Source: Spirochaetota bacterium (GTDB lineage: Bacteria > Spirochaetota > Spirochaetia > Treponematales > UBA12059). From it: a DNA stretch of 45,677 bases. How positions within the stretch are numbered: position 1 is the first letter of the stretch; every line of letters begins with the position of its first letter. This document shows positions 32,490 through 37,850 of the stretch, piece after piece. The notes under the pieces were generated by a model, which saw only the letters and a program-made list of their open reading frames with translations, had not been told where the DNA came from and did no database searches. The stretch covers positions 1-45,677 of the forward strand of contig JAHIWF010000158.1 of the NCBI GenBank assembly GCA_018815555.1, given 5' to 3'. Made by a program: the position numbers and the translations under genes.

Positions 32490-33170
32490 TCAGCCGGCCG
32501 GGGCTGCCGCCGGTTTTTTGGAAAGGCCCTCTGCCAGGCGTTCCATTAATTGCGGTGCTTCCATGGCCGAATCCGCCGTTCCGTCCGCTCCAAGCTCCTG
32601 CACCAGGTCAGGCCGCAGTCGGAAAATGGCACCGCCCACCGCCAGTTTTATGCTGTCGCCCAGATTTCGCCGGTCCAGTTCGACCCGTACCGCCTTGATA
32701 TTCAGTGCGGTTGTAAGCATCATGGCAGAAACGCCGATAATGCAGGCCCCATGCCGCACCGCAGCATCGACAAAATCGGCAGCCGGAACATCATTGCCCA
32801 GATCCACTACCTGCCAGCCGTGTAGGCGCAAAAATGCTATTACCATGCGGCGTCCAAGCACATGAAAGTCATCCTCAATATTCCCCATGATAATGACACC
32901 GCGGCTGCCATCGCCTACCGGTGCGCTGCCGCTCTTTAAATACTCATCCAATAGCAATTCAGTTACCTTGCCCGCAACATAGCTTTGGGCCAATGAAATT
33001 TTACTTTCACCCCACATCTCCCCGGCTCTGCGCAATACCGGCTCGACCAGACCATGTATCAGCTCAGGATAGCCGCTGCGCTCGGCCTCTTTCCGTAATT
33101 TTGCTACTGCCCCATCCAGATTCCCGGCCAGAATATCATCGAGCAGTTCTATTTCCTGATACTCAAACAT
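32490..33170 (-). CDS. Corrinoid (cobalamin-binding) methyltransferase protein
   Basis: Methionine synthase B12-type fold: helical cap, GNIEDDFHVLGRRMVIAFLRLHGWQVVDLGNDVP (DxHxxG), SAMMLTTA, VGGA. Confidence 0.88.
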   Translation of the reverse strand: MFEYQEIELLDDILAGNLDGAVAKLRKEAERSGYPELIHGLVEPVLRRAGEMWGESKISLAQSYVAGKVTELLLDEYLKSGSAPVGDGSRGVIIMGNIEDDFHVLGRRMVIAFLRLHGWQVVDLGNDVPAADFVDAAVRHGACIIGVSAMMLTTALNIKAVRVELDRRNLGDSIKLAVGGAIFRLRPDLVQELGADGTADSAMEAPQLMERLAEGLSKKPAAAPAG

Positions 33171-33190
33171 GCCCGTCCTCCATAACCATA

Positions 33191-33219
33191 ACTATAAGGC
33201 TAAGCTCTGGCTGTGTCAA
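33191..33219 (-). promoter_or_regulatory. sigma70-like promoter of the corrinoid operon
   Basis: Minus strand TTGACA - 17 nt - TATAGT, followed by SD ggagg. Confidence 0.7.
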
Positions 33220-33312
33220 AAAAGCGGGGCAAGCGAGCGAACTATCAAGGCAGGCTGCCAGGTCTTTGATACAGCTTTACCAGACGGCCATCGGGCACGT
33301 ATACTTGGCACT

Positions 33313-34320
33313 ATGAACACACTCAAACATCTGGCCGTGCGCGGCAGCGACATCCTGGTCGCAACTGATTCCATAAATCCTGACCAAACTGTGCCAGTCG
33401 ACTGCTGGCTGCATCCTGTCCTGCCGGCGGAGTTTTTGGCTCTGGCAGAGGACCATTGCCCCTTGTCACTGGCCGTCACGCCAAGCCGCTATGTTGTTCA
33501 TTCCTTTTCTGTTGACCAGCTGTCGCCGGCAAACTGCAGCTGGCTGCCGCTACGCGACCTGGTATACCGACTGCCCGAAGAAAGCTGGCTGCCGGCGGCC
33601 CGGGCCATGGCCTATGCCAACTGGCATCGCGGAAACCGCTTCTGCGCACGCTGCGGCGCGGCCATGGCGGATGCCGCACAGACAGCAGCGGCAGGTACAG
33701 CTGCGGCCGCTACAGTTTGGCTGTCCGGCAGCCCAGGCGCCGCAGCGGAGGCCCCAACAGCGCTGCCTACTCCGCCTTCTGCCGTCAGCCCAGGTTCCGG
33801 GTCTGGCTCGAGTGTCGAAGCGGCGGCCGTACCAAAGGCAGCACCTTTTGCCTCTGCCGCGCTCGCCGCCGCCGAGCCGGGAGAGCTGGCACTGCGCTGC
33901 ACCGGTTGCGGCCAGCTGCTTTTTCCGCGGATTTCGCCGGCTATCCTGGCGGTGGTGGTAAAGGACGGCAAGCTGCTCTTGGCCAGAAACGCCGCCAACA
34001 AGCAGGGCTTCTGGAGCCTGGTAGCCGGTTTTATGGAACCAGGCGAGCGCTTCGAAGACTGCGTCCGGCGCGAAGTGCGCGAGGAGGTTGGCATCGAGGT
34101 GCAGGTAGACGGCTATCTTGGTTCGCAGCCCTGGCCCTTCCCCGACCAGCTAATGGTAGGATTTTCGGCCAGCTGGGTGTCCGGCGAGCTAAAACCCGAC
34201 GGCATCGAGATTGCCGAGGCGCTCTGGTTTGCTCCCGATCAGCTGCCGCCGGTGCCGCGCAGCGGCAGTCTTTCGCGCCGCCTGATCGATCAAGCCTGCA
34301 AAAAGCTGTCAGCTAGCTGA
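33313..34320 (+). CDS. nudC: NAD+ diphosphatase NudC (Nudix) with extended zinc ribbon
   Basis: FCARCG ... CTGCGQLLFPRISPAILAVV, Nudix box GFMEPGERFEDCVRREVREEVGI, SQPWPFPDQLM; start reset to ATG 33313. Confidence 0.9.
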   Translation: MNTLKHLAVRGSDILVATDSINPDQTVPVDCWLHPVLPAEFLALAEDHCPLSLAVTPSRYVVHSFSVDQLSPANCSWLPLRDLVYRLPEESWLPAARAMAYANWHRGNRFCARCGAAMADAAQTAAAGTAAAATVWLSGSPGAAAEAPTALPTPPSAVSPGSGSGSSVEAAAVPKAAPFASAALAAAEPGELALRCTGCGQLLFPRISPAILAVVVKDGKLLLARNAANKQGFWSLVAGFMEPGERFEDCVRREVREEVGIEVQVDGYLGSQPWPFPDQLMVGFSASWVSGELKPDGIEIAEALWFAPDQLPPVPRSGSLSRRLIDQACKKLSAS

Positions 34321-34341: not shown

Positions 34342-34364
34342 AAAATACATTTATAATGTATTTT
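34342..34364. promoter_or_regulatory. Perfect 10-bp inverted repeat (3-nt spacer), candidate distal operator
   Basis: AAAATACATT TAT AATGTATTTT. Confidence 0.6.
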
Positions 34365-34367
34365 AAT

Positions 34368-34393
34368 CAAATAATATGTTGACATATTATTTG
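34368..34393. promoter_or_regulatory. Perfect 11-bp inverted repeat (4-nt spacer) centred on the -35 box
   Basis: CAAATAATATG TTGA CATATTATTTG; -35 TTGACA at 34379-34384. Confidence 0.7.
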
Positions 34394-34407
34394 TCAGGTA
34401 CTATTAT
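34379..34407 (+). promoter_or_regulatory. Strong sigma70-like promoter of the GGDEF-RHH gene
   Basis: TTGACA - 17 nt - TATTAT, then SD aggagg. Confidence 0.75.
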
Positions 34408-34424
34408 AATTCCAGGAGGACACT

Positions 34425-35096
34425 ATGACCACTACAAACCTGGATACACTTACAGGCCTGCCCAAGCGCGAGGCCCTGGAAAAAGCGCTGGATCAGTTGA
34501 TGGAGAACGGCGATACCGGTTGTCTGACTCTGGTACTCTGCGATGTGGACAAATTCCTGGAGATAAACCAGGCGCATGGGCATGCCGGCGGCGACGCGGT
34601 ACTAAAACTGGTGGCAAAGGCACTGCAGACTGCCGGCGACAGTCTGGCTATCCGCTACGGCGGTGACGAGTTCGCTGTCATTTTTAAGGGTGTGGAACGC
34701 GAGCAGGCCTTCCTACGCATGGAAAAAATCCGGGCCGAGCTGGCTGAAATCAAACAGATAGAAGCCGACGGCAAGCAGCAGGCTTTGCGCTTCAGCATCA
34801 GTGCCGGTATTTCGGCCTGGCCGATCGACGGCAGCAATCAGGCCGAACTGATGCGCAAGGCCGACGCCGCGCTCTACCGGGCCAAACTTGGCGGCCGCAA
34901 CAAGATCATGCTGGCCTACGAGGAAAAAATGGTGCCCAAGACCGCCCATTTTACCGCCACCCAGCTGGAGCGCTTAAGCGATCTGGCCAAAGACCAAGGT
35001 GTTGGCGAAGCGGTGCTGCTGCGTGAAGCCCTCGATGAACTGCTAACCAAGTACGTGCATGGCTTCCAGCGCACTGGCATGCCCACGGCTGGCTGA
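34425..35096 (+). CDS. Soluble diguanylate cyclase (GGDEF) with C-terminal ribbon-helix-helix-like domain
   Basis: GGDEF: DTLTGLPKREALE, CDVDKFLEINQAHGHAGGDAVL, RYGGDEFAVIF; C-terminus KTAHFTATQLERLSDLAKDQGVGEAVLLREALDELLTKY fits a CopG/Arc RHH pattern. Confidence 0.8.
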   Translation: MTTTNLDTLTGLPKREALEKALDQLMENGDTGCLTLVLCDVDKFLEINQAHGHAGGDAVLKLVAKALQTAGDSLAIRYGGDEFAVIFKGVEREQAFLRMEKIRAELAEIKQIEADGKQQALRFSISAGISAWPIDGSNQAELMRKADAALYRAKLGGRNKIMLAYEEKMVPKTAHFTATQLERLSDLAKDQGVGEAVLLREALDELLTKYVHGFQRTGMPTAG

Positions 35097-35150: not shown

Positions 35151-37850
35151 CTAGAGGTTCTTTGCCTTGATGCGGGCCATAGCCCACTCGGTGTAGGTTC
35201 GCACCCGCTTGTCCGGATCGGCCTGCAGCTGCTCCAGAATGGTCTGGCCGTCCTCGGTATTCAGCCGCTCCAACGCCTTGGTTACCTGCACCCGCACCTC
35301 CTGGTCCGGATCGCGTGCGGCCAGCACGATGCCGCGGAAGGCAGAAGCGCTGCCGATGGTCGAAAGCATCACTGCGGCCGCCCGTCGTACCTTCGGGTCA
35401 CGGACTGCCAGTTTGCGTATCCAGCTTTCCACATAGCCGGTACTTTCCAGTATTTCCACTATATACGGCTTCAAGGACGGGATGCCTTCTTCCAGAAGTT
35501 CCACCATGGCCTGTTCGCCGCTTCCCCCCATCAGCTTAAAAGCCATACTGAGCTTGTCTTTAAACACACCCTTGGCATCCTTAAAAATATCGATCAGCTG
35601 CCGGATAAATTTGCGCTGCTTCTTGCGGGCAATACATTGCTGCAGTTCTGCTGCCTCAAAATAGTCCTCGGCCAGACTGTCCGTCAGGATCTGTAGAGAC
35701 TTTTCTTCGTCGCTTAAGGCCAGACCTTCGAGGGCCGCCGCCTTAACCGAATCCACTTCGTTTTTGTCCGCCAGCACCTCGGCCAGCTTCAGCAGTGCAG
35801 CTTCCGAGCCATAAGCACCAAGGGCCCGGCCAACTTCGCAGCGCACCCGTTCGACCGGGTCACGCAACATTTCCGCCGCCCGGCTGATGGTTTTAGCCTC
35901 GTCATACTCCACCAAAGCCCATACCGCGGCTACCCTGACTTCAGGATCGGCATCTTCCAGGCTCTCGCGTATTTCTTTCAGGAAAGTTTTGCGTCCGGTG
36001 GCCGGCAGGCCGGCTATCAGAGCGGCCCGGACACTGGCGTCATCGGACTGCAGCAGGGCGGCTGCACGTTGTTCCAGCACTTCGATATCGGTTTCGGCCA
36101 GAAGCTTCATGAAATTTTTAAGTTCATCAAGCGGCAGGGTCGGCAGATGCTCCAGCAGGAACTGTATGCTGTAATCCAGCTTCATGCTGCCGATCAGCCG
36201 GAAGGCGTCCATACGCACTGCATGCGGATAAGCCTCGCGCCCCTGACGGACAATCTTTAGCACAAAGGGCAGTACAAAGCTCGGGGGCATCTTGGCCAGC
36301 ACCGTGCGCAACCTGTCCCGCAGCGGGAAGGCCGGATCCACCAAAAATTCGAACAACATCGGACAGAAAATAAAATCACCGTGCACCGGCAGAGACTCGA
36401 GCACCAGGTCCAGTAACTGGAAGCGCGCCGCCTCGCTCTGCGGCTCAGCTTCTGTCGCATCAGATACAGTGGCATTTCCGCTGGTGCCGGCGGCCGCTGC
36501 CGCCGCGGTCGCTGAAGCCGCTGCAAGCAATGCTGCTGCGTCAGCGCGCAGTCGGCGCAATTCTTCGCCCAGGCTGAGCAGTGCCTGGTCGGTGCCGCGC
36601 AGCTGAACGGCCTTCAGGCCGGCACTGTACAATAGCAGATTAGCCTGCGACAGCGGCCTGCTGCGCACCAAGGTACTGATACGGGTCCAGAGCGGCAGAA
36701 TATGCGCGCGGTCGCCGGTCTCGGCTAACAGCTCCGCCCCGAGCAGCAGCGTACCATAGGCAGCATCCTCGGGTAGCTGTTCCAGAAAGGAATTGATGCG
36801 CACGCTGGATGCGTTGGTCAGCAGACGGCGGATGTGCTCCAGATCCTCACTGTCATCCGGCGAGGCCCGCAAGAACAGCTTATACAGGGTTCCTGAACGT
36901 TCCAGGAACAAGGCTGCCGAAAAACGCAATTCCATATCCGCTCCAGCCAGATAGGAGATGGCCAGATTTACATCGTCGTCGCGAGCAGGATCCAGCAGTT
37001 CCAGGATATGGCCAGCCTGCACGGTAGACAGCTCTGTATAGTCCACAACAAACAAGTCATTAAAGTCTTTCTCCAGCCTCAGGCGGGCAGCCTGGCGCAC
37101 TTCGAACACCGGGTCATCCAGATATAAAGCTTTTATACGTGAATAAAAGATTTCTCGATCCTGTACAGGGGCTTCCTGCACTACAGTCTTGCGGATAAGC
37201 GCGTGCGAATCATCCAATGATTCCCAGACACTGCGGACAGAGCGCGGCTCGCTATCATGAATCAGGATTTTGACAGCAAAAAAGCGCGAGGCCCATTCCG
37301 GATCACCGGTCATCTCCCGAATCTGGTCGATAGCGTCGGCCAGGAAAGCGGCGGCGGCTTTTCCGTCGAACGGCTCGCCTTTACCGGCCAAAGCGATCTG
37401 CTGATAGGGCAAAAAATCATGCCTGGAGGCCAGCCACTCGCGGATCGCGGCCTGCAGCGACCGGTTTTGCAGGGCAGCCTTAAAGCAGATAAAAATTGAA
37501 GCTGCCGGAGAGAATTCCAGCAGCAGGCGGCACAGACCTTCCTTCGGATGAGCCTGGAATTTTTGCAGCCAGAGCGAATCCAGGCCGGTCAGGACCGGTA
37601 GATTAAGCTCGTGCTTACGGGCAAGCTGTACCAGCAGGCGCACATTAGCCTGGGCACGACGCAGCGGCAGCTTTTTCTTTATCAGAGAGGCTGTATCCTC
37701 AGTCTGGCTTAATTGCCTAACCAGCCGCCGCAGACTCAGCTGTGAAAGTCGTACAAATAAAAGCAGAAGCAATGCACCGGCCAGCACCAATGCCACGGCT
37801 AAAACCAGCCACAAAGGCAAACGGGTAAAAAATTCCATGATACTCTTCAT
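35151..37850 (-). CDS. Membrane-anchored HEAT-repeat protein
   Basis: N-terminal TM; repeated helical units such as LEDADPEVRVAAVWALVEYDEAKTISRAAEMLRDPVERVRCEVGRALGAYG; SD gtggag. Confidence 0.8.
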   Translation of the reverse strand: MKSIMEFFTRLPLWLVLAVALVLAGALLLLLFVRLSQLSLRRLVRQLSQTEDTASLIKKKLPLRRAQANVRLLVQLARKHELNLPVLTGLDSLWLQKFQAHPKEGLCRLLLEFSPAASIFICFKAALQNRSLQAAIREWLASRHDFLPYQQIALAGKGEPFDGKAAAAFLADAIDQIREMTGDPEWASRFFAVKILIHDSEPRSVRSVWESLDDSHALIRKTVVQEAPVQDREIFYSRIKALYLDDPVFEVRQAARLRLEKDFNDLFVVDYTELSTVQAGHILELLDPARDDDVNLAISYLAGADMELRFSAALFLERSGTLYKLFLRASPDDSEDLEHIRRLLTNASSVRINSFLEQLPEDAAYGTLLLGAELLAETGDRAHILPLWTRISTLVRSRPLSQANLLLYSAGLKAVQLRGTDQALLSLGEELRRLRADAAALLAAASATAAAAAAGTSGNATVSDATEAEPQSEAARFQLLDLVLESLPVHGDFIFCPMLFEFLVDPAFPLRDRLRTVLAKMPPSFVLPFVLKIVRQGREAYPHAVRMDAFRLIGSMKLDYSIQFLLEHLPTLPLDELKNFMKLLAETDIEVLEQRAAALLQSDDASVRAALIAGLPATGRKTFLKEIRESLEDADPEVRVAAVWALVEYDEAKTISRAAEMLRDPVERVRCEVGRALGAYGSEAALLKLAEVLADKNEVDSVKAAALEGLALSDEEKSLQILTDSLAEDYFEAAELQQCIARKKQRKFIRQLIDIFKDAKGVFKDKLSMAFKLMGGSGEQAMVELLEEGIPSLKPYIVEILESTGYVESWIRKLAVRDPKVRRAAAVMLSTIGSASAFRGIVLAARDPDQEVRVQVTKALERLNTEDGQTILEQLQADPDKRVRTYTEWAMARIKAKNL

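Follow-up and report, generated by a model that had tools for sequence, protein, structure and literature searches.

A rare family of GGDEF proteins with a ribbon-helix-helix tail in Spirochaetota and a putative operator at the promoter of one member

Features of the locus

The window, the whole 45,677-nucleotide stretch of DNA that was analysed, belongs to the genome of a Spirochaetota bacterium (G000; 3.66 Mb, 415 contigs). It carries a gene for a soluble protein of 223 residues in which a GGDEF domain is joined by a conserved linker to a C-terminal ribbon-helix-helix (RHH) domain. The gene lies downstream of a nudC-like gene, and two perfect palindromes, P1 and P2, are located between the two genes. 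A summary of the features is shown in Table 1.

Table 1. Features of the GGDEF-RHH gene and its upstream region, in positions of the window
Feature	Position	Strand	Basis and remarks
Palindrome P1, AAAATACATT-TAT-AATGTATTTT; possible second operator or site of another regulator	34342..34364		Perfect, 10-3-10
Palindrome P2, CAAATAATATGT-TG-ACATATTATTTG; proposed operator	34368..34393		Perfect, 12-2-12; overlaps the -35 box
Sigma-70-like promoter, TTGACA-17-TATTAT	34379..34407	+	11/12 matches
Ribosome-binding site, AGGAGG	34415..34420	+	Sequence, just 5' of the ORF
Gene for the 223-aa GGDEF-RHH protein	34425..35096	+	ATG start; ORF list, Pfam GGDEF and RHH_3, relatives in four other genomes and on one viral-collection contig
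GGDEF domain, aa 5-160	34437..34904	+	RYGGDEF (aa 77-83) intact; AGDS at the I-site position; FK lysine replaced by Leu (aa 45); AF2 pLDDT mostly >90
Conserved linker, IMLAYEEKMVPK, aa 161-172	34905..34940	+	L163, A164, E166, E167, P171 and K172 shared without change by all five genome members; modelled at low confidence in the monomer
RHH domain	34941..35054	+	Ribbon TAHFT 173-177, helix A 178-190, turn, helix B 193-212; RHH_3 match; two low-confidence AF2 helices

Domain organization

The 223-aa protein was searched against Pfam with hmmscan. GGDEF was matched on residues 5-160 (E 2.9e-37, 128 bits) and RHH_3 (PF12651) on residues 174-210, with 25.5 bits against a cut-off of 21.6, and no further domain was found. 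These matches bear out a preliminary description of the gene, which had recognized an intact RYGGDEF domain, an RHH-like C-terminal tail, and the lack of both a sensory domain and an RxxD I-site; RxxD is present at that position in none of the six members of the family described below. GGDEF_2 (PF17853) remained under its cut-off (13 vs 24.5 bits) and a Pfam HTH was absent. With GGDEF_2 below the cut-off and the PucR HTH missing, the protein does not fall among the PucR-type regulators.

The AF2 model of the full monomer consists of a confident GGDEF fold, an extended stretch and the two helices given in Table 1. RHH domains dimerise, and the ribbon forms only in the dimer. In the models, which are of monomers and of low confidence in this part (pLDDT 64 for the fragment by itself and about 50 for this part of the full model), the stretch before the helices is extended and unpaired. 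Foldseek with the RHH fragment model (single-sequence, pLDDT 64) matched no RHH structure, and the PDB sequence search with the RHH part returned one sub-significant CopG-family match (7by2). Because the model is of low confidence, the ribbon forms in dimers and Foldseek came back empty, the RHH assignment is based on the profile match and on conservation rather than on structure.

Family members and distribution

The analysis uncovered a family of six members, five of them in spirochaete genomes (three families, one order) and one on a contig from a virus collection. Since the fusion recurs with the same C-terminus in four genomes besides G000 and on the viral-collection contig, it is not a product of chance, and GGDEF-RHH is a real, rare protein family. 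The protein of G001, from the same genus as G000, is identical to that of Spirochaetes bacterium GWB1_60_80 (L021), the nearest named relative, and shares 68% identity with the window protein; that of G010, from the same family as G000, shares 60%. G242 and G557 contribute members from other families of the order. The fusion is carried by 5 of 390 genomes of the order, and no further fusion was found in a 392-genome draw of the phylum Spirochaetota. The profile search covered Spirochaetota, and members outside the phylum may exist. A weak profile match in G031 sits in a histidine-kinase-like protein (judged by eye) and was rejected. Within G000, the protein gave 30 matches, nearly all through GGDEF.

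The five genome members were tested by tree, and their GGDEF domains group in a single clade (SH-aLRT 97). The fusion therefore probably arose once, and its present scatter is probably due to loss or transfer. The sixth copy (L077) is found on contig IMGVR_UViG_3300032167_005931 and may be prophage-borne or part of a host flank. In the region L077:1-5028, the gene lies at the contig end, opposite ORFs of 1205 aa and 137 aa, both of which match PHROGs families of unknown function. PHROGs matches to the GGDEF-RHH protein are likewise mainly to families of unknown function and run via the GGDEF part; nothing close to the RHH tail turned up in the plasmids and phages searched.

Conservation of the RHH tail

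Residues 161-210 are 88% identical between the window protein and G001 (dN 0.069, dS 1.8), as compared with 61% for the GGDEF domain (dN 0.32, dS 1.3), and the dN of the RHH part is below that of the GGDEF part in all ten pairs of the five genome members. Over 54 aa, the RHH stretch of G001 is 91% identical to that of the window. With synonymous sites close to saturation, the linker and RHH still show 60-88% identity to those of the window protein. The ribbon PKT[AS]H[FY]T is kept by every member, including those with an eroded GGDEF domain; K172, T173, H175 and T177 are invariant in all six, in which the helix B motif GEA[VI]LLREALD is also conserved. In the CopG register, R4, T6 and T8 face the DNA, with T8 two residues before the helix cap; by this register T173 and H175 would presumably face DNA as well. 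RHH_3 scores above its cut-off also in G242 and G557, and just below it in G001 and G010. Other RHH_3 matches in Spirochaetota are mostly to short open frames of about 55-150 aa.

Promoter and upstream sequences

P1 and P2 are two of the three perfect palindromes in the whole window (arms of at least 10, spacers of at most 8). An arm of at least 12 was reached in 0.025% of shuffles of the stretch holding P2, and the P2 core is unique in the 3.66 Mb of G000 when up to three mismatches are allowed. The relaxed pair AATAATAT-N0-14-ATATTATT has a single occurrence in G000, at the GGDEF-RHH gene; a wider regulon is unsupported, the palindrome being absent elsewhere in this genome. P2 is likely to be the operator of an autoregulator, and repression would be the likelier sign because P2 covers the -35 box (TTGACA) of the gene's own promoter. 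Outside the genus the gene neighbours differ, which makes the gene's own promoter the natural target. P1 is AT-rich and lies 3 bp upstream of P2. It was rejected as a conserved operator, since similar matches elsewhere were at about the control level and there were none at the homologues.

Five of the six members carry the half-site heptamer ATATTAT upstream of the gene, with three copies in G010 and two in L077. In shuffle tests that were run after the motif had been noticed, the observed nine copies (a capped count over five upstream regions) were reached in 0 of 3000 shuffles, as was the occurrence of AAATAATAT twice in each of three upstream regions (0/3000); some shared heptamer in all five upstream regions, a weaker result, arose in 2%. 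G242 has the half-site pair in the opposite arrangement, once in the genome, at contig positions 10-30 and about 70 bp before the homologue. The earlier suggestion that the protein may act at a promoter has thus gained independent support in the sequence, from the unique perfect palindrome on its own -35 box and the related half-sites before homologues. Other observations count against an autoregulator. In G001, the motif is missing upstream and the gene starts 37 bp after nudC; G557 has one half-site and the palindrome is absent; the arrangement of half-sites varies between genomes; some heptamer copies fall on -10 boxes, elements that resemble TATTAT in any case; and A+T makes up 70-85% of the upstream regions. 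The presence of PilZ receptors in all five member genomes, and the 30 matches to the protein in G000, count in favour of the function proposed below.

State of the GGDEF domain

The window protein keeps D40, D42, N48, D57, E82, K154 and R158, most of the active-site residues, and cyclase activity is therefore likely, perhaps at a reduced level. To judge from these residues the domain is probably still catalytic in the window copy, perhaps weakly so, and synthesis of c-di-GMP by it is plausible. D40, D42, N48, D57, R77, D81, E82, F83 and K154 are invariant in all six members, the GGDEF motif is complete in five, and the active-site residues are largely intact in G000, G001 and G010. Erosion is seen in the other members: G557 reads RDSRDEF for RYGGDEF with its RHH intact, G242 is without the His of GH, and L077 is without the phosphate-binding Arg of GRN. 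The FK lysine is missing in all six, the window protein reading DVDKFLEINQ where the aligned WspR and DgcZ read D.D.FK..ND; the PleD equivalent of this lysine contacts a GTP phosphate. The promoter palindromes, the loss of the FK lysine throughout the family and the degenerate GGDEF of one member are additions to the preliminary description. Since residues are eroding in parts of the family (the GGDEF motif in G557, the Arg in L077), the function common to the members appears to be DNA binding and not cyclase activity, and in members with decayed cyclase residues the pattern suggests a GGDEF domain that is at most a sensor.

These losses, the missing FK lysine and the much faster evolution of GGDEF than of RHH would also suit a plain autorepressor whose GGDEF domain plays no nucleotide role and persists as a relic or dimer scaffold. 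A scaffold is not expected to retain the invariant GGDEF residues listed above, with the motif itself complete in five members. A pure scaffold is disfavoured for this reason, and we consider this explanation unlikely.

Proposed function

The explanation to which we incline, with rather more confidence than doubt, is that of a DNA-binding autoregulator, probably a repressor, with a nucleotide-responsive GGDEF domain that is probably still catalytic in the window copy. The RHH tail would dimerise and, at the palindrome that overlaps the gene's own -35 box, bind the AAATAATATGT half-sites; the likeliest outcome would be repression of the gene. The same dimerisation would pair the two GGDEF domains and put them on the promoter, where they would be either a working cyclase or a nucleotide sensor with GTP or c-di-GMP in the A-site. 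The state of the GGDEF domain (cyclase or A-site nucleotide) would then tune DNA binding and, without an I-site, feedback would run via transcription in place of product inhibition. A stronger version is that the protein is a working c-di-GMP synthase placed on its own promoter by the RHH domain, with catalysis or A-site occupancy acting as the direct switch for DNA binding and expression. We put this forward tentatively, as a possibility held with some reservation; the architecture is what suggests that the state of the enzyme may control transcription, as in PdeL-type trigger enzymes.

The ribbon residues belong to the best-conserved positions, the RHH stays intact where some members lose cyclase residues, a unique palindrome lies on the gene's own promoter, and there is no conserved neighbour as a possible partner. 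All this argues against an ordinary diguanylate cyclase with an RHH tail whose main role is dimerisation or protein binding and that does not bind DNA, a reading that appears quite improbable even with the largely intact active sites of G000, G001 and G010 and the missing upstream motif of G001 in its favour, and with the fact that RHH-type proteins, e.g. antitoxins, can also bind proteins. That the protein is the antitoxin-like half of a toxin-antitoxin pair, as weak sub-cut-off matches to Antitox_RHH and a RelB-like antitoxin might hint, is extremely unlikely, because a conserved small partner gene was found in none of the genomes, the neighbours seen across them being nudC, an ABC transporter, a protease, a nitroreductase and an ATPase (by eye except nudC).

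Relation to known systems

No described GGDEF-RHH protein was found in the open-access literature, in agreement with the preliminary description, whose author knew of no characterised example. What is new is how the known parts are combined, together with the proposed operator. The closest parallel in proposed behaviour is PdeL (YahA), a trigger phosphodiesterase of E. coli with EAL-HTH architecture, which binds a palindromic region located at the promoter of its own gene (PMC5052742). In both proteins a c-di-GMP enzyme domain is joined to a DNA-binding domain, and a palindromic region lies at the own promoter; PdeL has an EAL domain, an N-terminal LuxR-type HTH and positive autoregulation, whereas here a GGDEF domain is followed by a C-terminal RHH and the predicted site is placed for repression. 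By this analogy, the GGDEF-RHH protein would act as a mirror image of PdeL. CdbA of Myxococcus xanthus is also an RHH DNA-binding protein tied to c-di-GMP, which binds CdbA itself and excludes DNA (PMC7156744), but it is a small stand-alone protein with a role in chromosome organisation, without the fusion to GGDEF seen here. A GGDEF-fold domain adjoins a DNA-binding domain in PucR/CdaR-type regulators such as MabR, in which a GGDEF-like domain that lacks both catalytic and inhibitory motifs stands beside an HTH (PMC11617747); that domain is PF17853, the partner is HTH and not RHH, and MabR has an extra globin domain. The C-terminal domain matches RHH_3 as do regulators of the RHH_3/CopG family, which stand alone.

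Whether diguanylate cyclases (DGCs) can be trigger enzymes is a question posed by the review of trigger phosphodiesterases (PMC5052742). If the proposed function is true, the protein is a candidate for the so-far-missing c-di-GMP-making enzyme that doubles as a gene switch. The family offers a compact, soluble trigger-DGC candidate of 223 residues with a named predicted operator, so that the question can be tested with one purified protein and DNA of about 95 bp. It also offers a GGDEF domain that is apparently drifting from enzyme to regulator, with its DNA-binding partner held fixed.

Adjacent genes

The nudC-like NUDIX gene upstream (window 33169-34320, + strand) contains an Ala-rich insertion of about 70 aa that separates the two CxxC knuckles of its zinc ribbon, and its Zn_ribbon_NUD match stops at 16 of 32 positions. 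The zinc ribbon is intact in the nudC homologue of the same genus (L021:1363-2160, 265 aa). Downstream of the GGDEF-RHH gene, a convergent gene (window 35151-37850, - strand) encodes an 899-aa protein with HEAT-like repeats, recognized by eye. The protein encoded at window 32490-33170 (- strand) resembles, by eye only, the corrinoid (B12-binding) proteins of methyltransferase systems.
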